Shown: positions 5,843 to 32,608 of the stretch, one piece after another
How positions within the stretch are numbered: the first letter of the stretch is position 1
Layout of the letters: each line of letters begins with the position of its first letter
NCBI RefSeq assembly: GCF_013426915.1
Contig: NZ_AP023180.1
Location: forward strand, 1,426,001-1,490,000
From: Paraburkholderia sp. PGU19
GTDB lineage: Bacteria; Pseudomonadota; Gammaproteobacteria; Burkholderiales; Burkholderiaceae
DNA length: 64,000 nt
Reading direction: 5' to 3'
Position numbers and translations under genes: made by a program
Notes under the pieces: model-generated
The model's database searches: none
The model's input: only the letters and a program-made list of their open reading frames with translations
Told to the model about the DNA's origin: nothing

Positions 5843-6769
5843 ATGAAGACCACCGGCCTGAGCGAACTCGAAGCGGTGCTGGCTGTTGCGCGTCACCGGA
5901 GCTTCCGCGCCGCCGCGAACGAAATGGGCGTCTCGACCTCGGCATTGAGCCATTCCGTGGCGGCGCTCGAAGCGCGCATCGGCGTGCGGCTCTTCAATCG
6001 CACGACGCGCAGCGTGTCGCTGTCGGAAGCGGGCGCGCAGTTTGTCGACAGCGTGGCGCCCGCGCTGTCGACGATCCGCGTCGCGCTGGAGCAGGCGGGC
6101 AGCTTTCGCGACACGCCGAGCGGCACGTTGCGGATCAACACGGCCGTGGGGGCTGCGCATCAGGCGATGCCTGTTTTCATTGCGTTCCTTGAGCGCTATC
6201 CGGAGATGAAGCTCGATATCGTTACTGAAGGCCGGCTGATCGATATTGTGGTTGAGGGGTTCGATGCGGGGATTCGGCTTGCGGAGACGGTGCCGCAGGA
6301 CATGATCGCTGTGCCATTCGGGGATAAGCAGCGCTTTGCCGTGGTCGGAAGTCCGGCGTATTTTGCGCGGCATCGGGCGCCGCGTACGCCTGACGAGTTG
6401 AGTCAGCATCGTTGTATTCGGACTCGTATGCCGAGTGGCACGATCTATCAGTGGGAGTTCGAGCGGCATGGGGAGATGGTGCGGGTCGATGGCAAGGGTG
6501 CGTTGACGCTCGATGAGTCCGGTTTGATGTTGAGCGCTGCGCGGGCTGGGGTTGGGCTTACTTACTTGTCCGAGTGGACGGTGGCCGAGGATCTCCAGTC
6601 AGGGACGCTGGTTCGTGTGCTAGAGGATTGGACGCCGCCGCTGGATGGGTTGTGTCTTTATTATCCTGGGCGGAGGCATGTGCCCGCTGGGCTGCGGGCG
6701 CTTATCGCCATGATTCGGGAATCCGCGGATTTGCAGCGCCGGGATGCTGCGGGCAAACGGAAGAAGTAG
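5843..6769 (+). CDS. LysR-family transcriptional regulator
   Basis: A 308-residue LysR regulator. The winged helix-turn-helix is at residues 5-62 (FRAAANEMGVSTSALSHSVA, then ARIGVRLFNRTTRSVSLSE) and is followed by a periplasmic-binding-protein-like effector domain. It starts at ATG 5843 with an AGGATA ribosome site and is divergent from the ALDH gene, which is its likely target. Oddity: from roughly codon 130 onward third positions shift from mainly C to mainly T/G, and this continues into the repeat that follows the gene. The same shift is seen at the 3' end of the GntR gene at 31676, also next to a copy of the repeat. Confidence 0.9.
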   Translation: MKTTGLSELEAVLAVARHRSFRAAANEMGVSTSALSHSVAALEARIGVRLFNRTTRSVSLSEAGAQFVDSVAPALSTIRVALEQAGSFRDTPSGTLRINTAVGAAHQAMPVFIAFLERYPEMKLDIVTEGRLIDIVVEGFDAGIRLAETVPQDMIAVPFGDKQRFAVVGSPAYFARHRAPRTPDELSQHRCIRTRMPSGTIYQWEFERHGEMVRVDGKGALTLDESGLMLSAARAGVGLTYLSEWTVAEDLQSGTLVRVLEDWTPPLDGLCLYYPGRRHVPAGLRALIAMIRESADLQRRDAAGKRKK

Positions 6770-6777
6770 GGGTTTTG

Positions 6778-6927
6778 GTCTGCGACGGCTGGGTGGTGGT
6801 TGCGCTTTTTTTGATGGTGTTCGCGATGCGGTTGGGTTATTTGCTTTTGCGCTGGCATCCGCGTTTTGTTAGCGTGGTTCAAGCGTCGCCCCTGTGCGGG
6901 GCGGCACCTACTTTTCTTTGCCGCCGC
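6778..6927. repeat. Dispersed palindromic repeat, left half, cut by the mobile element
   Basis: Begins with GTCTGCGACG (6778-6787), includes CGCTGGCATCCGCG (6850-6863) and a CGCCCCTGTGCGGGGCG hairpin near 6888, then runs through CACCTACTTTTCTTTG to CCGCCGC (6921-6927). The same blocks in reverse orientation occur at 16094-16171, and a related full copy is at 32353-32608. Here the repeat stops abruptly at 6927 and resumes at 15585. Confidence 0.85.
6921..6927. other. Left attachment site core (attL), CCGCCGC
   Basis: Seven-base direct repeat shared with 15585-15591. Left of it the sequence continues as the host palindromic repeat; right of it the match to the intact repeat at about 16.1 kb stops. 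Confidence 0.7.
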
Positions 6928-7150
6928 GAATGCAAGCGTCCCGCTGTGATGCTTGTCAGACGGGGTTTCCGGAGAAATTGCGCGCCCGCAACCCATGTCC
7001 CTACCCCCGTCCTGATTGCTGCTGACCGCCCGCAACGCCGAATTTTTTAAAATTCGCGTACGCCGTTCGTGCCGTGCGCGGGTGTGAGCATAGCAGCGAC
7101 CCGGCGCGAGCCCGTCAGCGCGCGGATTTCCCGGGTTGCCGGAGGATAAA

Positions 7151-7414
7151 TCAAGGCAGGAGCGTATCGTCGACTATCCGCTGGCCTGCACTGAAGCCAG
7201 TCATAAGCGCTTCTGCTTCTGTGGCGAACGGTTTCTGACTATCAGCCGTGAGGCGCATTGGTCCGACCGTAGTGCGACTTGCGCCGATCTTTCCGATGTA
7301 CACGACTGCGATAAAGCCGAGCGGAGCCAATAAGGTGACGTTGCCCGAGGGCTGCCACACTGGCTCAGTCTCGACGGTCACCTCGAAGTCTTTGTACTTG
7401 TAGGTTCTTTTCAT
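7151..7414 (-). CDS. Hypothetical protein of the mobile element
   Basis: An 87-residue cytosolic protein starting at ATG 7414 (an in-frame TTG at 7432 is an alternative). AGGTG lies five bases before the ATG. The chain has a beta-rich pattern (YKYKDFEVTVETEP, NVTLLAPLGFIAVVYIG) and ends in a helical segment (TEAEALMTGFSAGQRIVDD). I do not recognise a family. It is the first gene inside the left end of the element and points toward that end. Confidence 0.55.
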   Translation of the reverse strand: MKRTYKYKDFEVTVETEPVWQPSGNVTLLAPLGFIAVVYIGKIGASRTTVGPMRLTADSQKPFATEAEALMTGFSAGQRIVDDTLLP

Positions 7415-7812
7415 CTGCGCACCTGATTCCAAACCGACAGACGCCCGACAATCCGTCTACAGGAAGTGTACCCGTTTGTGAAGGCAGTCCGATGAAGGCT
7501 CAAAACTGAGCACCCGTGAGGGGTGACGGGAGGGCGGGTCAAAAGTCCAGACCGGGTCGACGAAGCATCCCGCCAAACCATTTATCTTTGTGCGCGCACT
7601 TTAGAGTCCCGGGGGTGTCTTGACGCCCGACCCTGCCGCGCGAATGATGTGTGCAACGGCGAAACCCCTGTCCGTGCGCTCTGCCTGCGTGATGCAGGTC
7701 AACCGTGTTGCGGGTGACGCGCTGGCCGCGCGCCGTGGCTCTGCGCGATGCAGAACCTGACCACGACGTCCGAAACGTGCCGATATGCAGGAGGAAGCAA
7801 GGAGTCCAAAAG
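7415..7812. other. Leader region before the capsid gene
   Basis: About 400 bases between the divergent small gene and the capsid gene. The only clear signal is a doubled purine-rich ribosome site (AGGAGG near 7790 and AAGGAG near 7800) just before the capsid start. Short frames here lack ribosome sites and homology signals. A packaging site for a helper phage could lie here, but nothing shows it. Confidence 0.4.
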
Positions 7813-8919
7813 ATGGACATGACCGAAATCAAGAAGGCGCTGGCGGAGACGTTCGGCAAGTACGACGAGCGCGTCCAGCGGATTGAGACGAACCTGATCG
7901 ACCTCGCGCAGAAGTACGCGGGCAGGAGCGAATGGCACGGCGACGGCAGTGGCGGCGAAGGTCTCGGCGCACTGGTGACAAAAAGCGACATGCTTGAACG
8001 CTGGAAGAATGGCGATGGCCGTGTCGTACGCACGGAGGTACCGTACGACCTGAAGGCCGCGATCCTCTCGAACGTGGGCAATCCGGCGACGGGCTTCCCG
8101 GTGCCGCCAGACTTTCAGGTCGCAGGGTCGCTTCCCGTGCCGCGCTTCTGGCGCGCGCTGTGGAACCGCCCCACGAGCAGCAATGCGATCGAGACCGTGA
8201 CCGCGACGCCGGGTGGTGCGCCGGGTGCCGATGCCGTCGCCGAGGGTCAACTGAAGCCCGAGGCGGCGCTTTCGTATGGCCCCGCGACAGTGCCGGTCGC
8301 AACCGTTGCGTTCTGGGCGCTATGCTCGCGGCAGCTGATGGAAGACAGCGCGGCGTTCGCGCTGTATCTGGACGGCGAGATGCGCAACGGGCTGGATGCG
8401 AAGATCGATGACGAGGTCATTAACGACACGGGCGTCGCGCCGCACATGAACGGACTCGTGAGCGCATCCACACCGTGGGTGCCCGCCGCTGGGTCGATCG
8501 GCCTCGACACGATGATCAGCACGGTCGTCACGCTGCGCGCGAACGGTGCGAGCAAGGTCGTGATCGGCATCAGCATTGCCGACTATCTCGCGACGATGCT
8601 AGTGAAGTCGACGACCGGCGAGTACGTCATCTCACCCGGTACGAACCTGCTCGCGATGATCGGCGCGGTGCTCGTGCCATGCAGCGCCGTGCCGACCGGC
8701 AATTTCGTTGCCTGCGGCACGCCGGAGGGCTGCTACATCGCTTTGCGGAACGACGTCGTGGTTGAAGTCTCGCGCGAAGACATGGACAACTTCCGCAAGA
8801 ACCTTGTCACGACGCTCGTCGAGGCCCGCATGGCACTAGTTGTGCAGCGAAATTCGCTGTGCCTATATGGCCCGCTCGTACCGACCACGCCACTCGCGAC
8901 AGTATCGAAGTCAGCCTGA
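7813..8919 (+). CDS. Phage major capsid protein, HK97 fold
   Basis: A 368-residue protein with the architecture of HK97-family major capsid proteins. An N-terminal helical, charged scaffolding-like segment (residues 1-45, e.g. KALAETFGKYDERVQRIE) is followed by a Gly/Ser-rich link (DGSGGEG) and then the shell domain, with the characteristic P-domain helix region (SRQLMEDSAAFALYLDGEM) and C-terminal RNDVVVEVSRED plus RMALVVQRNSLCLYGPL. In phages this gene sits with portal, prohead protease and terminase. Here it stands alone and is closed by its own terminator. ATG 7813 is chosen over upstream in-frame starts because of the AAGGAG site. Alternatives: a decayed prophage remnant, or a satellite-encoded capsid that remodels or interferes with a helper phage. 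Confidence 0.85.
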   Translation: MDMTEIKKALAETFGKYDERVQRIETNLIDLAQKYAGRSEWHGDGSGGEGLGALVTKSDMLERWKNGDGRVVRTEVPYDLKAAILSNVGNPATGFPVPPDFQVAGSLPVPRFWRALWNRPTSSNAIETVTATPGGAPGADAVAEGQLKPEAALSYGPATVPVATVAFWALCSRQLMEDSAAFALYLDGEMRNGLDAKIDDEVINDTGVAPHMNGLVSASTPWVPAAGSIGLDTMISTVVTLRANGASKVVIGISIADYLATMLVKSTTGEYVISPGTNLLAMIGAVLVPCSAVPTGNFVACGTPEGCYIALRNDVVVEVSREDMDNFRKNLVTTLVEARMALVVQRNSLCLYGPLVPTTPLATVSKSA

Positions 8920-8958
8920 GTCCATGCCCCATCGGCTGATGCCGGTGGCGTGCTCCTT

Positions 8959-8987
8959 GGCCCGCCTCATCGTCGGCGGGCCTTTTT
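8959..8987 (+). terminator. Rho-independent terminator of the capsid gene
   Basis: GGCCCGCC (8959-8966) and GGCGGGCC (8975-8982) form a perfect 8-bp stem with an 8-base loop, followed by five T (8983-8987). It is 39 bases after the capsid stop and insulates the gene as a single transcript. Confidence 0.9.
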
Positions 8988-9231
8988 CATGCCAGATCAG
9001 TTCACGTCGATTAAGCGCTCTAATGCGACAAGTGACCGCATATGTGAACGACCGTGCGGCTCTACCATTTGAAGCGTGCAATGACGCAAATCAATTGAGA
9101 GCGAAATGTCTTACGTCCATTCAACTCTCGTCGCGATTGCATCCGTCACAAGGTGTTCGAAGTGCAGGAAATCATCCCGATGACATCGACATCTTCTGCG
9201 CGATTGATTGACGCTTGTTTTGGAGTTCGCC
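8988..9231. other. Intergenic, capsid terminator to small exported protein
   Basis: About 240 bases more AT-rich than the flanks, presumably with the promoter for the 9232-9923 gene pair. No motif I can name with confidence. Confidence 0.3.
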
Positions 9232-9561
9232 ATGAAGAAGTTCGTCGTTTTCCTGCTGGCCGCGGCGCTCACCGCGCCCGCCGTCCACGCTTCCGATATC
9301 GCAATTATGAGTAACCGTGATAACGGACTGATCGTACTGACCGATGTCGTTGGCAATTGCGCGACTGGCCGCCGTATCTATGTCACTGGCGCGGGTGGCA
9401 ACGTCCTCGGAGGTGGCTGCTATACGATCGATGACCCTTGGGTCTATGTGCGGTATGACGACGAATCCCAGATCAGGCAGTACCCGTCTGCGAATTTTTC
9501 GCTGACGCCCGCCGGCCGCGCGTACGTAAGCAGAAACACGAACAGCGCGGGGAGCTTGTAA
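9232..9561 (+). CDS. Small exported protein of the mobile element
   Basis: A 109-residue protein with a textbook signal peptide (KKFVVFLLAAALTAPAVHA, residues 2-20) and a mature part of about 88 residues containing two Cys (GNCATGRR and GGGCYTID) that could form one disulphide. The chain is rich in Gly, Tyr and beta-type segments. The start is ATG 9232, since the open frame's extra eight residues upstream would spoil the signal peptide. It precedes the superinfection-immunity-like gene by 90 bases on the same strand, so the two may be a lysogenic-conversion pair acting at the cell envelope. No family recognised. Confidence 0.65.
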   Translation: MKKFVVFLLAAALTAPAVHASDIAIMSNRDNGLIVLTDVVGNCATGRRIYVTGAGGNVLGGGCYTIDDPWVYVRYDDESQIRQYPSANFSLTPAGRAYVSRNTNSAGSL

Positions 9562-9650
9562 TCAACGGAATCGGCGGGAAAGCGTCGAACGACGCGGAAC
9601 CGAACGAGCATCGACACCGCCCGGTGCGCATCGGGCACAGGGAACGCATC

Positions 9651-9923
9651 ATGGAACATTCGGGCTATTGGTTGCACTTGCTGGTGGCAAATTGGCCACT
9701 TGTAGTGGCGGTGCTGGTGGTGCTCCACTTCGTGCCGTCCGTGGTGGCTGCGCTTCGCGACCACCACCACTTAGCCGCCATCTTCGCGCTGAACATTCTT
9801 TTGGGCTGGACATTTCTTGGCTGGACCATCGCGCTTGTCTGGTCGCTCATGAATCAACGGAACCAGGAGCCGCCACTGGCTGGCGACGTACAGGCGCGAC
9901 ACGAACCGACGTTTCGGGCATAG
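9651..9923 (+). CDS. Superinfection immunity-like membrane protein
   Basis: A 90-residue inner-membrane protein with two hydrophobic segments (residues 12-33 and 44-66). The second carries ALNILLGWTFLGWTIALVW, which matches the conserved core of the Imm/superinfection immunity family known from T4 Imm, where the protein blocks DNA injection by related phages. A short charged tail follows. ATG 9651 is preferred to GTG 9624 because an AGGGAA site precedes it and the longer form adds nine charged residues. In this element it would protect the host from, or modulate, an incoming or helper phage. The family match is from memory of the motif. Confidence 0.75.
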   Translation: MEHSGYWLHLLVANWPLVVAVLVVLHFVPSVVAALRDHHHLAAIFALNILLGWTFLGWTIALVWSLMNQRNQEPPLAGDVQARHEPTFRA

Positions 9924-10066
9924 CTCAACATGTCCTGCAACGCCACGCCCGCCTGAAGTCAGTCTGACCCTCTTGCGTGCGCCGTTCACCACGCGCGGCG
10001 CGCATCCGGCCCCCCGGCGCGGCGGGCCGCAGGAAAGCCGCGCGATGTCCGTTGAACGAGCACAGA

Positions 10067-11479
10067 TCAGACTTGATGCTCGTTGTTCGTCCAATCTGGT
10101 TTCATCGTGTTTGATGCCGCAATAAGTTGCAGCGCTTCATCAAATGCGCCATCCGGGTCGAGAGGAAACTTGGCTTCATTGTCCAGGAGCCACTGGATAT
10201 TTTCCTGTGCAGCCACGAGGACTCTGTTCGACTTCGCAAAAGCGTCGATATTGGCATCGAGGTTGGCTTTCGGCTGCCGACATACGAGCATCGCGATTAC
10301 AGTCGTCACGTGCCCGCTTCGTTTCAGCGCCGTTTCAAGCTCGGCGCGGCGATCCACAAGCTTCCCTATCTTCGCACTGACGTCACTGACCTTGATCGTG
10401 CATTCGATGAGAACCAGTCGACCGCTCGTTGTAGTGACAACGATATCTGGAGCGTCCGTTTCTAACGGTTGAACAGAAGTGAATCCGCGAGTGAACAACA
10501 GGGCCGCGACTCCAGTTTCGAACTTTCTTCCGTCTTCTTCCAAGAGCGCCTTGCGCATTTGCTTGAGGTTGGGATCAAAGGTGCGAAACGTGAGCAGCCT
10601 CTGATTTCGAGCTTTGGCTGGATCAGATACGAACTGCCGGCGAACCATGGCCGGGCCTATCATAAGAACGACAAGTACGGCATCGGCATTGACGACGTCG
10701 ATCTCAGCGACAGCCTGCAGGAAACCTTCGACGCCGGTCCACTTCAGGCGATCCGCAACTTGCATGCGTGCAACTCCGATGCCCGGGACAACACGTAGAG
10801 CTAATCGCACCCCGCTCGGATCGAAACTTGGAACGGCCTTAAGCTCGATCTTTAGTTTGTCGTCCGAGAGTTCGAGAAACGATATGTCTACGGGTGGACT
10901 AACTCGCAAATCGATATATGGAGAGCCCTTGCTGTTTACCGGCAGATTGAGGCCGAACCAACCTGCCACATCGTTCAACCCATCGAATGGCGGCTCTGCC
11001 AACCGTAACTTATTGTCGAGCAGCGCCAGTTCCTGTACAGAGAAGTCGTTGATATAAGGGAACGACTGCACGGACAAGTGCGGCTGGAAGAACCACTGAT
11101 CCCGGCCGTTTTCCGATGTCACCGTTCGCGTACCCTTTTCGAACGCGACTGAATCACCGCTGCCAAACCGAAGGGTTCCAGCCGCTGCGTCTCTCAGTAT
11201 CTGCACAGCTTCGTGTTTGTGTTCGAGTTGCTTTTGAATTTGCTCAACTATCAGACCATCGGCCCGCACAGATACTGTGTAGTCGTTTGGCGGCTTCAGT
11301 GGAAAGAGTGCAACGGATGCGGCCCAAATGTGGTTTGGCTCCCCATTCGACCGAGCAATGATTCGCTGATCCAGGTAGTAGCCGTCGCTCAGCCACGCCT
11401 CCACGGCGTGAAAAAATGAATCGGTTGCCAGTTCGGCTGCTGTCGAGCCTGTCGGTCTACCGTAGGGATCCGCCAACAT
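10067..11479 (-). CDS. Unknown protein with a degenerate PD-(D/E)XK nuclease-like region
   Basis: A 470-residue soluble protein with no signal peptide or membrane segment. I do not recognise the first 310 residues. Residues 316-380 look like a restriction-endonuclease-like fold: helix with Glu321 (GRKFETGVAALLFTRGF), Asp345 in APDIVV, then beta strand GRLVLIECTIK with Glu359 where the ExK motif belongs. The usual Lys is Thr361, with Lys363 two places on, so catalysis may use a shifted Lys or be lost. A long helix rich in Arg/Glu follows. In an integrated phage-related element, a nuclease-like orphan of this size is a candidate anti-phage gene. It is transcribed toward the immunity-like gene, and its stop is 143 bases from that gene's stop. 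ATG 11479 has a GGAG site about ten bases upstream. Confidence 0.6.
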   Translation of the reverse strand: MLADPYGRPTGSTAAELATDSFFHAVEAWLSDGYYLDQRIIARSNGEPNHIWAASVALFPLKPPNDYTVSVRADGLIVEQIQKQLEHKHEAVQILRDAAAGTLRFGSGDSVAFEKGTRTVTSENGRDQWFFQPHLSVQSFPYINDFSVQELALLDNKLRLAEPPFDGLNDVAGWFGLNLPVNSKGSPYIDLRVSPPVDISFLELSDDKLKIELKAVPSFDPSGVRLALRVVPGIGVARMQVADRLKWTGVEGFLQAVAEIDVVNADAVLVVLMIGPAMVRRQFVSDPAKARNQRLLTFRTFDPNLKQMRKALLEEDGRKFETGVAALLFTRGFTSVQPLETDAPDIVVTTTSGRLVLIECTIKVSDVSAKIGKLVDRRAELETALKRSGHVTTVIAMLVCRQPKANLDANIDAFAKSNRVLVAAQENIQWLLDNEAKFPLDPDGAFDEALQLIAASNTMKPDWTNNEHQV

Positions 11480-11698
11480 AGATCATTCGCTCCAAAAAGG
11501 ACTACTCCACTAGTGCTGCGTTTCACTTCAGCATCGGAAACTAGGTCGAGCGGCGGAAGGGAGTTTGTGAGAAAACGACAAACACGTCGTGCTTCCGAGT
11601 TGGTCCCACAGCCCGCTATCAGTGATCGACCGCAAGTCTATCCCATGACGCGCCGCGCACGAAACCTCAGGCCCGGACCTCGGGAAAGTGCATTGACC

Positions 11699-12085
11699 TC
11701 AATGCACGGTGATGCTCGTGGTGCCTGCGTCCTGTCCGCCGCCACCCGTAGACTCGAAGGCATCGAGGATGTCGACGAGCGTGCGGACGCCCGCGCAGGC
11801 CGCGCGTCGCCGACCGGCCTTCGCTCTGCGCTCACGCCTCGCCTGCGCTGCCGTGAGGCTGCCGTGCTCCTCGCACAAGCCGAGCACGAAGCACCCGAAC
11901 GCCTCGAACTGGGAGGCGTCGGCCATCACCGCGTGCAGGGCGGCGAACGTCCCGGCACAGAACGCGCGCATGCCTTCAGCGGGTCCCGTGTACGGGACTG
12001 TCCGGTGAACCTGCGCGAAGGTGAGCAACTGGCACGCCGCGCGCAACGTGGCAGGCGCTTCGGGATCGTCGATGGGGCTGGTCAT
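11699..12085 (-). CDS. Hypothetical protein in the replication module
   Basis: A 128-residue Ala-rich, probably all-helical protein with a basic segment (AQARRERRAKAGRRRAA, about residues 79-95) that could contact nucleic acid and a Gly-rich tail. It lies 16 bases downstream of the gene ending at 12102 on the same strand and probably belongs to the transcript that starts at the replication-like gene. ATG at 12085. No known family. Confidence 0.55.
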   Translation of the reverse strand: MTSPIDDPEAPATLRAACQLLTFAQVHRTVPYTGPAEGMRAFCAGTFAALHAVMADASQFEAFGCFVLGLCEEHGSLTAAQARRERRAKAGRRRAACAGVRTLVDILDAFESTGGGGQDAGTTSITVH

Positions 12086-12101
12086 GATGTCTCTCCTGCG
12101 G

Positions 12102-12431
12102 TCAGTGCATCGTGGAACTGCCTGGGTCGGGAATGCTCACGACTTCGGGCTGGGCGGGCTCGGGCTTGCGGCCTTCCGTGATGTCGTACATGGCTCGCGC
12201 GATCGCGGCCCCGCTGGGACGCCTGTTTTTCGCAAGACGCGCCTTCGCCACCGGATAGGCTTCGCGCACCGTACGGGCAGTTGCGCCGTGTCGGATCAGT
12301 TCCCCGAGGTGTTGGCGCAGGGTGCCCAGTTCGACCTTGCTGGCCATCCAACTACACAGTCCCTCGTCGCAGAGTGAGCGGAACGCTGCAACCAATTCGT
12401 CGACGGTCGCCTGCCCCGATCCATTCGTCAT
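12102..12431 (-). CDS. Hypothetical protein in the replication module
   Basis: A 109-residue helical protein (VDELVAAFRSLCDEGL, TLRQHLGELIRHG, TVREAYPVAKARLAKNRR) starting at ATG 12431 after a GAGGGTGGG ribosome site. The frame stays open upstream to 12722, through the iterons and the AT-rich 12-bp repeats, but those added residues are encoded by repeat DNA and are unlikely to be translated from there. It lies between the origin-like array and the 11699 gene and is co-oriented with them, suggesting a role in replication or copy control. That is inference from position. Confidence 0.55.
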   Translation of the reverse strand: MTNGSGQATVDELVAAFRSLCDEGLCSWMASKVELGTLRQHLGELIRHGATARTVREAYPVAKARLAKNRRPSGAAIARAMYDITEGRKPEPAQPEVVSIPDPGSSTMH

Positions 12432-12611
12432 CCGCCCACCCTCTTTTTGCGCAGCGCGTTGCAAAACGCGCTGTTGCTGCACATGCTCACCGCTCGCGCG
12501 CGTAGGTACTGCGACCGTCGGTGGTGAAGTTGAAGCCGTAACCGCACACGGGGCGTGTGCGGCGCGACTAGCCGGCCCGGCGATGAGGGCCCCTGAATAT
12601 TCCCCTGCTTT

Positions 12612-12641
12612 TAAACCATGCTGTAAACCCTGCTTTAAACC
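12612..12641. repeat. AT-rich 12-bp repeats, candidate DNA-unwinding element
   Basis: TAAACC begins at 12612, 12624 and TAAAC at 12636, an exact 12-base period within TTTTAAACCATGCTGTAAAC and its continuation. It is one of the most AT-rich spots in the element and directly adjoins the iteron array, the arrangement seen in iteron-type plasmid origins. Confidence 0.6.
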
Positions 12642-12656
12642 CTTGTCCCTCACGGT

Positions 12657-12732
12657 GAGGGAGCGTGGAGGGTCATTTGAGGGAGCGTGACCCTCGCCGT
12701 GAGGGAGCGTGACCCTCACCATGAGGGAGCGT
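12657..12732. repeat. Four 22-bp direct repeats (iterons)
   Basis: The core GAGGGAGCGT starts at 12657, 12679, 12701 and 12723: four copies at an exact 22-base period, two helical turns. Inside each unit, CCCTCRCC and GAGGG add local dyad symmetry. The first unit lies past the stop of the replication-like gene and the others overlap its 3' end. Confidence 0.75.
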
Positions 12733-13215
12733 CGAGCCGTTCGCGCCCGTGACGCTCCCTCTGTGTGAGGGTGCGTCGCTGTCCACGCTCCCTCTGTGTG
12801 AGGGTGCGTCGCTGTGCTTCGCGCGGTACTTTTCGCGGATTGTCCTGAAGCGTGCCTGACTCCGCGCCTGACGTTCTTCCCACGGTTCGGGTGGCGGGTA
12901 GGCAGCGGCGATGCGTTCAGCCTGTATCCGATAAACCTTCGTGCCCATTTTCCCGATTACGTCGCCGGTCCATTGCAGGATGTCGAACTTGCGCAATTCG
13001 GCGAAGATGCGTTCGACTGTGGCGACGCCGAGCCGCGTATGATGTGCGACCCATTCGACGGACGGGTACACAAGGCAATCGTCGTCCTTCACAAGTCGCC
13101 CGAGCCGGACAAGCACCAGCATCCTGTTGGCGTCCGGCGCATGATCCTCTGCCGCGCGGATGATCAACTCGGCTGCGCTCGGGTTCTCCGCATCCACCTT
13201 GCGACCGGCGCTCAT
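12673..13215 (-). CDS. HTH replication-initiator-like protein
   Basis: A 180-residue cytosolic protein. Residues 15-95 form a winged-helix domain of the HTH_36 kind found in phage and plasmid replication proteins (LVLVRLGRLVKDDDCLVYPS, VEWVAHHTRLGVATVERIFA, FDILQWTG). The tail (residues 130-180) is repetitive and basic, with SDAPSHRGSV twice and PHGEGHAPSRRGS, because the coding DNA is the iteron array. Overlap of the initiator gene with its own binding sites is known for small replicons. The ATG at 13215 has a GGGGGC-like site. No primase or helicase domain is present, so it would recruit host machinery. Function is inferred from domain and repeats. Confidence 0.65.
   Translation of the reverse strand: MSAGRKVDAENPSAAELIIRAAEDHAPDANRMLVLVRLGRLVKDDDCLVYPSVEWVAHHTRLGVATVERIFAELRKFDILQWTGDVIGKMGTKVYRIQAERIAAAYPPPEPWEERQARSQARFRTIREKYRAKHSDAPSHRGSVDSDAPSHRGSVTGANGSTLPHGEGHAPSRRGSRSLK
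12752..12817. repeat. Two 33-bp repeats with inverted iteron cores
   Basis: ACGCTCCCTC, the reverse complement of the iteron core, starts at 12752 and 12785 within two nearly identical 33-base units (three helical turns). They encode the tandem peptide SDAPSHRGSV in the replication-like protein, so protein-coding and binding-site functions appear to overlap. Confidence 0.7.
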
Positions 13216-13309
13216 GACTGCCCCCGCATGGCTTGCGAACAGCGACGGCGTGGCTTATGCTGGCCTCGCGTGCCGTCAGGTACGTTCGATAGTTGTGCGA
13301 TGCAATCCG

Positions 13310-13336
13310 CGCCCGCTGCGCCACGGCGGGCGTTTT
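13310..13336 (+). terminator. GC hairpin with T-run on the plus strand
   Basis: CGCCCGC (13310-13316) pairs with GCGGGCG (13326-13332), followed by TTTT. The neighbouring genes read on the minus strand, so this would stop antisense transcription through the AlpA-like/replication boundary. Confidence 0.4.
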
Positions 13337-13358
13337 CATGTGTGGGCATGGCGGGACC

Positions 13359-13718
13359 TTACCGGGTGCGCGCTGCCGCCTTCGCCGCGAAGCGCTCGCG
13401 CTTCTCGCGCTCCGCCTGTTCGGCACGCATGCGCACGTACGCGCGCATGGGACCGCGCATCCAGTACCGGTACTTGCCGCGCAGGCGAATCGGCGCGGGG
13501 AATTCCGGGTCGCTGTCAATCAGACGCCAGAGCGTCGCAATCGAGATGCCGCCAAGCATGGCCATCGTCTCGCCGGTATCGATCAGCGTGAGGTCGTCAT
13601 CGGTCAGCGCGCTGGTGCCCGTCGCTTCAGCGGACATGGCTGGCGGTGCATTTTCTGCACGAGGCTTGCGCGGACGTCCCGGTCTGCGCCTCTGGGTAGT
13701 GGCTTGCGGTTCACTCAT
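13359..13718 (-). CDS. AlpA-like excisionase/transcriptional regulator
   Basis: A 119-residue DNA-binding protein. An N-terminal AT-hook-like stretch (RRRPGRPRKPR, residues 10-20) precedes a MerR-type helix-turn-helix of the AlpA family: LIDTGETMAMLGGISIATLW followed by RLIDSDPEFPAPIRLRGKYRYW. AlpA proteins act as excisionase-like activators of integrase genes in P4-type satellites and other islands. The gene lies between the integrase and the replication-like gene on the same strand, with a CTGCAC/GTGCAG dyad 11 bases upstream of the ATG that may be an autoregulatory operator. The basic C-terminal helix (QAEREKRERFAAKAAARTR) is longer than usual. Confidence 0.8.
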   Translation of the reverse strand: MSEPQATTQRRRPGRPRKPRAENAPPAMSAEATGTSALTDDDLTLIDTGETMAMLGGISIATLWRLIDSDPEFPAPIRLRGKYRYWMRGPMRAYVRMRAEQAEREKRERFAAKAAARTR

Positions 13719-13728
13719 GGCTCTCTCC

Positions 13729-13746
13729 CTGCACGTTGATGTGCAG
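13729..13746. promoter_or_regulatory. Dyad upstream of the AlpA-like gene
   Basis: CTGCAC and GTGCAG separated by GTTGAT, just upstream of the minus-strand start at 13718. Candidate operator for autoregulation. Confidence 0.4.
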
Positions 13747-14014
13747 CACTTTGTTCTGTTGCGTTGTGCAAAGATTAGAGCCGGTGTGGGCGTCTTTCAA
13801 GCGGGTGGTTGCGGCCGCCACGAGAAGGAAATTCCAAGGGCTGACGGTTGTGACCCGGTCGTGAACAGCGGAACGTCATCTTCCAATGACTTACGATGAA
13901 CCCGGTTTCCTTGAACCCAAAGTAACAATCACGCTACGCGAGACGGCATGTAGCCTGGATGCCGTCGTATGGTGTGTGAACGAGGCGACCGGTCGCAATG
14001 CGTTCCCGGAAGTG

Positions 14015-14077
14015 GTCTAACGCGTCTAACGCGTCTAACGCGTCTAACGTGTCTAATGTGTCTAATGTGTCTAATGC
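14015..14077. repeat. Seven tandem copies of a 9-bp unit
   Basis: GTCTAACGC three times, GTCTAACGT once, GTCTAATGT twice and GTCTAATGC once, with no gaps, 63 bases in all. It lies in the 470-base space between the integrase stop and the AlpA-like gene. Drift from CG to TG along the array looks like progressive mutation. It may bind Int/Xis or be a variable-number repeat. Confidence 0.85.
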
Positions 14078-14191
14078 TATTGAACGAGGGTTCAACGAGC
14101 GACCTGTTGTACGCGCAGCGGATCGCGTAGATGAAAATTGTTATTTCTTATGCGTGGGGCGCGCAACGCCCCGCTGCGATGACAGCCGCGT

Positions 14192-15412
14192 TTAGCGCGC
14201 CGCCGTGAATGGCAGCACGTCGGCGGCGGGGGAGTCAAGGAAGTCGGCCCAGCGCTGCATCAGTGGCACGCGCTGCTCGAAAAACCGCGTCCGCTCGTAG
14301 ACCTTCCGGACGTCGCCACGCGAGTCGTGCGCCAGCACGCTTTCAGCGACATCGGATGGCGTCGCGGTCGTCTCGCTGATCCACGTGCGCAGGCTTGAAC
14401 GCAGACCGTGTGGCGTGCATTCGCCCAGATCCCCGGCGATCGCGGACAGCGTGTCCCGCAGCACGGTCCCGCTGATTTCCTTGCCCTTCGCGGACATGAA
14501 CACAAGGTCATCGGCCCGGTGAGCACCGGGCAAGGCTTTGAGTAACTCGATTGCCTGATCGCTAAGTGGCACCCAATGTTCCTTGCGGCCTTTCATGCGT
14601 GGACCCGGCACGCGCCACGTGCGGCTGTCGAGGTCAATTTCCTTCCACGTCGCACCGCCCGCCTCACGCGAGCGCACGCCCGTGAGTGCGAGATACATCA
14701 ACAGAGGCGCGGCGGGACTGGTGTCGGCGCGCAGTCGCGCCATCAGCGCGGGCATCGCCGTCCAGTGAAGTGCGGCGCGATGCGTCGTAGCAGCCTTCGC
14801 GGCAGGGAGCAGGTGTTGCAGATGATCGTCCCATCTTGCCGGGTTCGGTCCCTGACGGCTGCCACGGCTCGTCGCCCAGTCAAGAATCGATTCGATGCGC
14901 CCCCGCAGTTGCGCGGCGGTCGCGTTTTTTTTCATCCACAGCGGTTCGAGCGTGCGCAGCACGTCCGTAGTTTCAATCGTGGCCACGTCCAGCGCGAGCA
15001 GCGGCTTCGCGTGCAGACGGATCGAGCCCGTCCACGCGGTGATGTTGCTCTGGCTCCAGTCAGGCGAACGCAGCGCGACGTACTGTGTGGCTGCCGCGAG
15101 GAACGTGAGCCTGAGGTCGGCGTCGCGCTGCGCGGTCCTGCGCGCGTTCGACTTTTCGGCCAGCGGATCCTTGCCCGCTGCGAGCAGACGGCGCGCTTCG
15201 CCGGCCTTCACCCGTGCCTCGGACAATGGCACGGCGTTGAGACTGCCGAGGCCCATCTCGCGACTGCGTCCATGCAGCGTGTACTTGAACAGCCACGATT
15301 TCGTCAGGGCGGGTGATACCTGCAAATGCAGGTTACCGCCGTCGGCGTAGCATCCGGGTGTGGCGACGGATTTGACTGCCTGTGCGGTCAGGCGATGGGT
15401 AGTGCGTGGCAT
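14192..15412 (-). CDS. Tyrosine integrase (DUF4102/P4-type)
   Basis: A 406-residue site-specific recombinase that inserts and excises the element. The N-terminal 90 residues are the Arm-DNA-binding domain (DUF4102; GGNLHLQVSPALTKSWLFKY), then come a core-binding domain (about 100-200) and the catalytic domain with Arg247 (LTGVRSREAG), His335 and Arg338 (TPHGLRSSLR), His362 (LAHDSRG) and the nucleophile Tyr372 (VYERTRFF). All active-site residues are present, so the enzyme should be active. The ATG at 15412 is preferred to an in-frame start at 15433. It starts 173 bases inside the right end, the usual position next to attP. Relatives mostly target tRNA genes, but here the target appears to be a palindromic repeat. 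Confidence 0.92.
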   Translation of the reverse strand: MPRTTHRLTAQAVKSVATPGCYADGGNLHLQVSPALTKSWLFKYTLHGRSREMGLGSLNAVPLSEARVKAGEARRLLAAGKDPLAEKSNARRTAQRDADLRLTFLAAATQYVALRSPDWSQSNITAWTGSIRLHAKPLLALDVATIETTDVLRTLEPLWMKKNATAAQLRGRIESILDWATSRGSRQGPNPARWDDHLQHLLPAAKAATTHRAALHWTAMPALMARLRADTSPAAPLLMYLALTGVRSREAGGATWKEIDLDSRTWRVPGPRMKGRKEHWVPLSDQAIELLKALPGAHRADDLVFMSAKGKEISGTVLRDTLSAIAGDLGECTPHGLRSSLRTWISETTATPSDVAESVLAHDSRGDVRKVYERTRFFEQRVPLMQRWADFLDSPAADVLPFTAAR

Positions 15413-15584
15413 GAGGGCTCCCGTTCGGCCCAACCCCTGTTTCTACCCCCGTCATTTTCTGAGCGGATTTGAACTGAGTTGAGCGAGATTGAATCGGGAT
15501 AATTGTATCAAACCCTTTACAGGCAAGGCTTTGAAGGCACTCAGACCCGATCAGTCTCACTCAGAGAATAGCCCGCTTCTGTTT

Positions 15585-15591
15585 CCGCCGC
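15585..15591. other. Right attachment site core (attR), CCGCCGC
   Basis: Direct repeat of 6921-6927. To its right the sequence resumes the host repeat (AAAGAAAAGTAGGCAAAAG) exactly as in the intact copy read in reverse at about 16.1 kb. Confidence 0.7.
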
Positions 15592-16100
15592 AAAGAAAAG
15601 TAGGCAAAAGAAAGCGGCTCACACCGCCAGTTCTTGTGTTTGCCTGAGGGCCCTCAAAGGGTCTTACGCCTCATACGGCAACGCCTCTGTTCACGTTCGT
15701 TGCCAACGCTTTGAATGAGCGCCTCACCCGCTTCGAATACCCGTACTCGGGCAAGCGGCAGCGAATGGTTGGCGCCGCCTAGGTGGCAAACTGTGTGTAG
15801 GTTGTCGCGTCGTATGGGGTAGCGCTCTTACAGGGTGGCCCGCGTGCGCTATTGTTCCGAAGTGAGGCGTGCGGAGCACTTGGGCCTACACACAGTTTGC
15901 CACCTGGGCGGCCGTGGAATATCTAACACTGCGTGCCGCAACGCGGGGGCGTGAAGCGGGTGAGGCGCACCGCAAGAGTGTTGGCAACGAACATGAGTCA
16001 CGTGATTGCCGTGTGAAGCGTAAGGCCGGTTGGGGCCCTCAGGCAAGAAGAATGTTGGTGGTGTGAGCCGCTTTCTTTTGCCTACTTTTCTTTGCGGCGG
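15585..16100. repeat. Large imperfect inverted repeat, arms of about 217 bp
   Basis: The left arm 15585-15801 and right arm 15885-16100 are reverse complements with mismatches, around an 83-base spacer. The outermost roughly 40 bases and the innermost 21 bases (15781-15801 against 15885-15905) match perfectly; the middle is patchy. No protein-coding frame with a ribosome site is visible. It is the centre of a larger symmetric structure whose outer blocks are at 6850-6863 and 16158-16171. Confidence 0.85.
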
Positions 16101-16171
16101 CAAAGAAAAGTAGGTGCCGCCCCGCACAGGGGCGACGCTTGAAGCAAGCTAACAAATCGCGGATGCCAGCG
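16101..16171. repeat. Dispersed palindromic repeat, right half, uninterrupted
   Basis: Continues the structure outward: AAAGAAAAGTAGGTGCCGC, the CGCACAGGGGCGACG block, and CGCGGATGCCAGCG (16158-16171), the reverse complement of 6850-6863. This copy shows what the chromosome looked like before the element integrated on the other side. Confidence 0.8.
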
Positions 16172-16317
16172 AAAAGGTCAAAATACCCAAACGGCAACGC
16201 CAACGCCCAAAAGGCAAAAAAACCGAACCACGCTGTCGATTCCCCCCACCCTCAACCGTCGTCAAAAATGAAACCCGCCATTCCGCGGTCCCAACCAGGT
16301 CAGACAGGAGAAAAAAC

Positions 16318-32352: not shown

Positions 32353-32608
32353 GTCTGCGACGCTGGGGGTGGGTTGGTTTTGTGCTGGCGCTTGAGGTGT
32401 GGCTTCGTGACGCGATGGTTTGGTTTGCTTGTGTTTTGCGCTGGCATCCGCGTTTTGTTAGCTTGCTTCACACGTCGCCCCTGTGCGGGGCGACGCGTGA
32501 AGCACGAAGGCAAAGCGCGGATGCCAGCGAAAAGACCAGCACGCCCAACCCAGCCGCGCCACAAAGCCAAACCGCAAGACCAAACAAACCACCTCAAGCG
32601 TCGCAGAC
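32353..32608. repeat. Complete copy of the dispersed palindromic repeat, 256 bp
   Basis: Ends in the inverted 12-mers GTCTGCGACGCT (32353-32364) and AGCGTCGCAGAC (32597-32608). Within it CGCTGGCATCCGCG (32439-32452) pairs with CGCGGATGCCAGCG (32516-32529), and the centre is CGCCCC-TGTG-CGGGGCG near 32476-32492. It lies between convergent GntR and MFS stops. It shares its blocks with 6778-6927 and 16101-16171 but lacks the CACCTACTTTTCTTTG extension. Confidence 0.85.

Follow-up and report, generated by a model that had tools for sequence, protein, structure and literature searches.

In the window (the whole stretch of 64,000 nucleotides of Paraburkholderia sp. PGU19 DNA that was analysed), a palindromic repeat is split by a segment with an integrase gene at one end. 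The locus raises the question of what this segment is, and whether the repeat is its regular target. The segment is very probably a small PICI-like phage satellite that used its own tyrosine integrase to insert into a high-copy palindromic repeat, in the loop of one of the copies. The split repeat is composite and is organized as follows.

6814..6917, minus strand: left outer arm of the composite host repeat, matching Rfam RF02421 (Bp1_684, a Burkholderia sRNA candidate) at 44.0 bits, which is the gathering score
6907..6927, plus strand: left half of the split palindrome, CCTACTTTTCTTTGCCGCCGC, ending in the core CCGCCGC (6921-6927), from sequence and inverted-repeat comparison
6928..15591, no strand: integrated element, 8664 bp, one core copy included, from its boundaries and the empty sites in relatives
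15585..15604, plus strand: right half of the split palindrome, CCGCCGCAAAGAAAAGTAGG, the core CCGCCGC (15585-15591) followed by AAAGAAAAGTAGG
16081..16114, no strand: second palindrome of the same composite repeat, intact (mirror copy)
16104..16200, plus strand: right outer arm of the composite repeat, RF02421-like, 36.6 bits, under the gathering score

The core CCGCCGC is present at both junctions, and excising the element in silico restores a perfect palindrome. The original prediction had placed the break at 6927 and the resumption at 15585, held that removing the segment rebuilds the repeat, and reported an uninterrupted mirror copy at about 16070-16171; the coordinates are correct, the repeat is rebuilt, and the intact palindrome is present. 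The inverted-repeat arms 6846-6930 and 16091-16175 are 94% complementary, and the arms 15582-15629 and 16056-16103 are 96% complementary. The sequence CTACTTTTCTTTG, with at most one mismatch, occurs four times in the 64-kb window against an expected 0.02 occurrences; the repetition of the palindrome in the window is not due to chance. The genome of PGU19 contains 236 exact intact copies, and CCTACTTTTCTTTG has 261 + 264 occurrences in it, with 0 for the reversed control. The palindrome is of the REP type in being short and present in high copy, and its extragenic position was examined at the window locus only. The genus-wide count of the repeat pattern covers 141 genomes, a set that does not include genome G093.

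Empty sites were sought at the orthologous LysR locus in the six nearest genomes. Both palindromes are intact in four of them (L087-L090), the first palindrome is unsplit and has a different loop in L091, and the repeat is absent from L092. The repeat is unsplit at five of the six loci, as the boundaries 6927 and 15585 predict, and a query with the element gave no match at any of the six (L087-L092). It is extremely improbable that homologous recombination between copies of the repeat brought the element in, or that the split is an assembly error at the repeat. A repeat this abundant can interrupt assemblies, and the contigs of genomes G093 and G060 stop within a few hundred bases of it. Against this, six genomes with such elements show precise boundaries on both sides, the junctions are element-specific, and an integrase is situated at one end. 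Furthermore, the two palindromes are 510 bp apart once the element is removed, which agrees with the listed intact pairs. Insertion by the integrase is the preferred reading, and the element contains the following genes.

7151..7432, minus strand: ORF, 93 aa, no family
7705..8919, plus strand: HK97-type major capsid gene, start uncertain, direction opposite to the integrase (PF05065, E=7.7e-21; phrog_10)
9208..9561, plus strand: ORF, 117 aa, no family
9624..9923, plus strand: superinfection-immunity-type protein (PF14373, E=1.5e-16; phrog_1039)
10067..11479, minus strand: ORF, 470 aa, no family
11699..12085, minus strand: ORF, 128 aa, no family
12102..12722, minus strand: ORF, 206 aa, no family
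12673..13215, minus strand: replication-initiator-like (phage O-like) gene (phrog_391, E=3.3e-6; phrog_270, E=7.4e-6)
13359..13718, minus strand: AlpA-like excisionase/regulator, weak match (phrog_66, excisionase and transcriptional regulator, E=1.6e-4)
14192..15433, minus strand: tyrosine integrase with an arm-binding domain, likely start 15412

The integrase contains Arm-DNA-bind_3 (PF13356), Phage_int_M (PF22022), and Phage_integrase (PF00589) domains, all above the Pfam cut-offs. Residues R254, H342, R345, H369, and Y379, which we take to be the catalytic residues of a tyrosine integrase, are invariant in the four aligned clade members, in line with the earlier claim that all catalytic residues are retained. 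By these domains and conserved residues the protein is a P4-type tyrosine site-specific integrase, with predicted recombination activity. The longest ORF begins at 15433, and the 406-aa database entry P0001 begins at 15412; the latter agrees with a start 173 bases inside the right end (15585 minus 15412), as first proposed. Among phage and plasmid records no integrase reached at least 60% identity, the best among the matches listed having 39% and 42%, and no relative above 44% identity was found at IMG/VR loci. Further proteins in the protein database (P0002-P0015) are 46-58% identical to the integrase. The only matches among solved structures were isolated integrase domains.

The relatives were placed in a quick tree of 68 rows, comprising L031, L032, 29 genus loci (L034-L062), 10 family-level loci (from the 13 loci L239-L251, the other three of which duplicated genus loci), and 27 rows hand-picked from 78 named loci not yet included (80 with two repeats). 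The hand-picking favoured betaproteobacteria and tRNA-flanked rows, and no row of the tree is an IMG/VR locus. A careful tree of 66 rows, made by omitting the long branches L032 and L098, supports the integrase clade with 100/100. With target use defined as a half-site at most 500 bp upstream of the integrase, the palindrome is the site in 7/7 clade members with readable sites, from two genera, versus 0/61 other tree relatives; about a dozen further close proteins lie outside this count of readable sites. The test set by the original prediction, whether relatives of the integrase are flanked by the same repeat, comes out positive for the clade at these sites. As the closest relatives found in other species also occupy this repeat, it appears to be the docking site of the clade. 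In an upstream half-site scan of 142 loci, 13 of which had no usable upstream DNA, the positives were six clade rows (four elements, two of them twice). Weak two-mismatch matches at L101, L118, and L161 were judged to be chance.

The three-domain protein of the present clade is the same as that of P4-type integrases with an arm-binding domain (DUF4102/Arm-DNA-bind_3). Its tree relatives often adjoin tRNA-Ser (21/61, and 1/61 adjoins tRNA-Ala, with tRNA-flanked rows preferentially chosen), consistent with the earlier expectation of tRNA use by most related integrases, whereas the clade itself is not at tRNA genes. These tRNA neighbours would fit an ordinary tRNA-type integrase, the window copy of which reached the repeat in a rare off-target event. 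Such an accident has very little probability, as all of the readable clade sites are in the palindrome and the six compared elements are at unrelated host loci. The clade sites, the precise ends, and the 510 bp spacing led to the rejection of off-target tRNA integration, of homologous recombination, and of an assembly error. Between the host flanks of the six compact elements, matches extend over just 52-63 bp, in a comparison in which flanks G093_R and G060_L were empty (contig ends) and G228_R, G143_L, and G430_R were short. Because the shared matches are so short, the insertions look like separate events. A single ancestral insertion inherited by all was ruled out by these matches together with the empty window locus in relatives.

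The genome searches scored part of the candidates (the best 12 per genome, 4 per genome, or 40 of 108). One clade copy was found in each of PGU19, G228, G430, and G339, where all candidates were scored, and one in each of G143, G093, and G060, among the best 12 candidates per genome. The many chromosomal targets proposed for the element are a potential of the multicopy repeat, one clade copy having been found per genome.

The loop is broken in six of the seven clade members, and in the six compact elements, both ends of which were located, the common cores are 6-10 bp long. In the seventh, the earliest-branching member G339 (43% identity), the break is in the left arm, with 13 bp shared and both ends located, and so the crossover point differs within the clade. 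In the reconstructed circle junction of the window element, the predicted core GCGGCGG is flanked by CTTGCATTC and AAACAGAAGCGGG. The junction is TTTG-core-AAAG in four of the six reconstructed elements, which resembles the inner arms of the palindrome, and is imperfect in the window element and that of G143. We infer that the inverted half-sites on either side of the loop, CTTTG and CAAAG, are most likely the binding sites of the integrase, and that strand exchange would occur in a GC-rich overlap of 6-7 bp, here CCGCCGC. In the circular element, similar half-sites would enclose this same overlap, whose asymmetry may set the orientation of insertion. The AlpA-like protein may govern excision, and a helper phage may mobilise the element.

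The palindrome might instead be attacked for its shape, an extruded hairpin whose exposed loop would admit unrelated recombinases, with no special sequence preference on the part of the integrase. A single strand of the palindrome folds into a near-perfect hairpin in all three variants tested. In 11/11 copies found (40 of 108 candidates scored), an IS66-family insertion sequence, which is unrelated to the element, interrupts this loop too, and an IS30-like element is located at the hairpin foot in L068 and L069. Shape recognition is nevertheless unlikely, since the loop sequence recurs in the circle junctions, four of six of which also have the inner arms, as fits ordinary sequence-specific core sites. 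Moreover, the non-clade integrases L040 (G102), L041 (G033), and L051 (G009) sit outside the repeat, although their genomes hold it. Sequence-specific insertion by the satellite integrase is preferred. The IS66-family element in the same loop makes the repeat a shared landing site. Tentatively, the composite repeat could be a communal landing pad, present in hundreds of copies in some Paraburkholderia-type genomes, to which the satellite integrase clade turned once, perhaps from tRNA genes, and on which IS66-type and IS30-type recombinases converged, perhaps via the extruded hairpin.

The six compact elements are 8.5-10.5 kb long and follow a common gene plan, in which an integrase gene and an AlpA-like gene are accompanied by replication genes and a single capsid gene of the HK97 type. 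They resemble PICI-type phage satellites and may depend on a helper. The integrase and the AlpA-type regulator are at one end, with weak excisionase/regulator matches (E 1e-5 to 8e-4) in four of six (window, G143, G430, and G228); the name AlpA for 13359..13718 is an interpretation of such a match. The ORFs at this position in G093 and G060 had no family match. They are similar to each other, and that of G060 is also similar to that of G143. All six have a replication gene of their own, with some matches weak and that of G093 primase-like. The late genes are less than a complete phage set: the capsid gene is present in 6/6, and no portal or large-terminase gene was found in the ORFs scanned. 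Capsid-forming PICIs have a complete module for head formation and packaging (capsid, protease, portal, terminase). The window element, with a capsid gene only, is not of this type; a protease is present in G143, G093, and G228, and a small terminase with HNH in G430. Among the nine cargo proteins of the window element no PADLOC defence family was found, and its capsid had no second match of that type in its own genome. The neisserial repeat dRS3 is dispersed.

Gram-negative PICIs (PMC10111431) resemble the element in their layout, with integrase and AlpA grouped at one end, a region for replication, and late genes captured from phages, and in both cases target use tracks integrase clades; the helper-embedded PICIs map to prophage late genes, whereas the target of the present element is a dispersed palindrome. 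Insertion sequences that target REPs are already known, IS1397, IS621, and ISPpu9 among others (PMC1525189). They too are mobile DNA with specific insertion into extragenic palindromes of high copy number, but are transposase elements, whereas the present element has a tyrosine integrase and phage-type cargo. The Neisseria filamentous prophage Nf is a phage-type element at a short inverted repeat (dRS3, 20 bp), but its recombinase is listed as a transposase (PMC4471427), and the present element, with its tyrosine integrase, is not of the Nf/dRS3 type. PAISt of Streptomyces turgidiscabies also recombines site-specifically at a palindrome, of 8 bp, which is at the 3' end of one gene (bacA), whereas the present palindrome is a multicopy repeat (PMC4057263). 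A search of the open-licence literature found no tyrosine-integrase clade tied to a dispersed palindrome, and the excerpts of two Paraburkholderia genome papers (PMC7186790, PMC5968390) do not mention the site.

The repeat, partly listed in Rfam as an sRNA candidate, can now be seen as a place where mobile DNA lands, and it supplies these bacteria with insertion sites that are ready for use. Integrases of satellites and prophages generally keep to a single site or a few, in many cases tRNA genes. With a clade tied to a repeat that is present in hundreds of copies, target switching and integration at multiple sites can be tested directly. If the repeat is indeed a communal landing pad, it would offer elements hundreds of harmless sites per genome.

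The element in the window interrupts a palindrome, the inner hairpin unit of a dispersed composite repeat that carries two palindromes and a pair of outer arms. The sequence CCTACTTTTCTTTG-CCGCCGC ends at position 6927, and CCGCCGC-AAAGAAAAGTAGG begins at position 15585, with a distance of 8664 bp between the two CCGCCGC copies, which bears out the coordinates of the original prediction of a precise insertion. The predicted intact mirror copy beside the split repeat was also found. The features flanking the element are:

Window 5843-6769, LysR gene, left of the element (Pfam)
Window 6814-6917, left outer arm, Bp1_684 match (Rfam)
Window 16081-16114, intact palindrome, mirror partner within the same composite repeat
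Window 16104-16200, right outer arm, Bp1_684 match (Rfam)

After in-silico removal of the element, the palindromes are 510 bp apart, which is close to the spacing of 510-516 bp seen in many palindrome pairs of the same genome, among the matches listed. The LysR gene was used to find orthologous loci in G047, G134, G053, and G021 (92-95% identity), and in G107 and G097 (84-85%), and the empty-site comparison covers these six nearest genomes by LysR match. Both palindromes are intact in four of the six relatives (loci L087-L090), the first palindrome is unsplit but has a slightly different loop in L091, and the composite repeat is absent from L092, the locus of G097. The element had no match in any of the six orthologous loci. 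Since the loci of the relatives are unsplit and lack the element, its insertion is best read, from these sequence comparisons, as an addition to a pre-existing repeat, with empty sites in related genomes as anticipated. The composite repeat itself is gained or lost at the LysR locus, because it is missing from L092.

The genome containing the window (G000:C2:1426001-1490000) has a size of 11.2 Mb in five contigs. A pattern count identified 261 forward and 264 reverse matches to CCTACTTTTCTTTG, and none to the reversed control; 236 palindromes are exactly intact. The inner pattern is present in 92 of 141 genomes of the genus and has no match in the other 49, and the highest count in a single genome is 363 forward matches. 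Folding predicted a single-strand DNA hairpin for all three palindrome variants, with z from -7.7 to -8.6. The outer arms match the Burkholderia sRNA candidate Bp1_684 (Rfam RF02421), the left one at the gathering score and the right one below it. Because Bp1_684 matches the outer arms of a dispersed repeat, the family may represent repeat DNA and not an sRNA. Additionally, positions 32411-32548 of the window resemble both outer arms side by side, without the palindrome.

Some match to the integrase was found in 139 of 144 genomes of the genus, including three relatives at 52-54% among the matches scored. A search of 398 genomes of the family, 63 of which had a match at E <= 1e-90, added G228, G430, and G339, again among the matches scored, and 58 genomes from the genus of G228, searched at E <= 1e-110, contained no further clade members. 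The clade members with readable insertion sites are the integrases of six compact elements, from the window, G143, G093, G060, G228, and G430, and that of G339, the earliest branch. In a 66-row tree, a branch supported at 100/100 separates these seven from all other rows; the same branch has an SH-aLRT of 92 in a 68-row quick tree. In all seven, a palindrome half begins 166-192 bp before the extrapolated start of the integrase; none of the 61 other tree rows, for each of which 200 bp or more of upstream sequence was available, has one. Thus, integrase relatives within the clade are flanked by the same repeat, as proposed. The rows outside the clade, chosen with some preference for tRNA-flanked loci, are in line with the expectation that DUF4102-type integrases use tRNA genes, with a tRNA-Ser gene just upstream in 21 of the 61 other rows and a tRNA-Ala gene at locus L032, but the clade itself is located in the palindrome. 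The protein database contains 14 further proteins with 46-58% identity to the integrase (P0002-P0015), among which P0004 was taken as the G228 entry and P0011 as that of G093; the count of seven out of seven covers the clade members with readable sites.

Junctions of the compact elements: core common to both ends, and element length
Window: GCGGCGG, 8664 bp
G143: GCAGCAG, 8968 bp
G093: TTTGCTGCTG, 9959 bp
G060: CAGCGG, 8629 bp
G228: TTTGCAGCAG, 8539 bp
G430: TTTGCAGCAG, 10467 bp

In all six compact elements, the core spans the host palindrome's loop, in three of them together with a few arm bases. The inner arms are repeated at the reconstructed circle junction (TTTG-core-AAAG) in four of the six, and are imperfect in the window and G143. 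The host flanks of the six elements share matches of only 52-63 bp. In G339, the break is located in the left arm of the palindrome, with a 13-bp core, TTACTTTCTTTGC, and a span of about 22.6 kb. The G339 element (L254, L267) is prophage-like, as judged from its YqaJ, large-terminase (GpA), and partial portal genes. Arms flanking an overlap are a general feature of tyrosine recombinases, and this logic is applied here together with the junctions. The integrase would bind the inverted arms CTTTG/CAAAG, recombination would occur across the 6-7-bp loop, and loop asymmetry would set the orientation of the element.

Each compact element encodes one HK97-type capsid protein, identified by Pfam in the window, G060, G228, G143, and G093, and by PHROGs only in G430. 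The capsid gene is oriented against the integrase in the window and in the same direction in the other five. The replication genes are O-like or HTH-type in the window, G143, and G430, AAA_25 in G228 and G060, and primase-like in G093. Weak excisionase/AlpA-type matches occur in the window, G143, G430, and G228; the ORFs at this position in G093 and G060 had no family match, but are alike, and that of G060 also resembles that of G143. Further cargo includes a prohead protease (G143, G093, G228), small terminase and HNH (G430), a lambda tail I match (G093), HEPN (G143), and a superinfection-immunity protein (window). The G143 protease was the sole family match of 20 further ORFs scanned, so neither a portal nor a large terminase was detected among the scanned ORFs of the compact elements. 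The gene plan is similar to that of Gram-negative PICIs, in the part of PMC10111431 that describes their organization, and we infer from gene content that the compact elements are satellites using a helper phage. Within the replication-gene ORF of the window, two exact 31-bp copies (12752-12815), 33 bp apart start to start, are possible iterons. A series of short GTCTAACG/GTCTAATG units at 14016-14076, close downstream of the integrase gene, possibly represents protein-binding sites.

The nearest precedents are insertion sequences targeting REP (PMC1525189), Nf prophages located at dRS3 (PMC4471427), and PAISt, whose site is a palindrome of 8 bp (PMC4057263). REP-targeting insertion sequences are known, and no report linking a clade of tyrosine integrases to a dispersed palindromic repeat was found in the literature searched.

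Other mobile DNA inserts at the palindrome. An insertion sequence of 1474 bp that encodes an IS66 transposase (PF03050) has at least 11 full-length matches in the same genome (L256-L266), with scores computed for the best 40 of 108 first-look candidates; it splits the palindrome loop in all 11. In nine copies, the 8-bp duplications at the two ends match each other and correspond to the loop (GCCGCCGC or GCGGCGGC), and the ends of L257 and L266 do not match, as after recombination between copies. Because the IS66-family element converges on the same loop, a role of the hairpin in integration of the clade elements is possible, but not needed. In L068, an element at 545-1670 combines HTH_38 with an integrase-core (rve) transposase, and we take it to be IS30-like; it sits at the foot of the first palindrome, and L069 has the same junction. 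Palindrome pairs about 1.64 kb apart at four places in the genome, among the matches listed, suggest at least four copies of the IS30-like element. Given the insertions of the putative satellite, the IS66-family, and the IS30-like elements, at least three different types of mobile DNA use the repeat as an insertion site.
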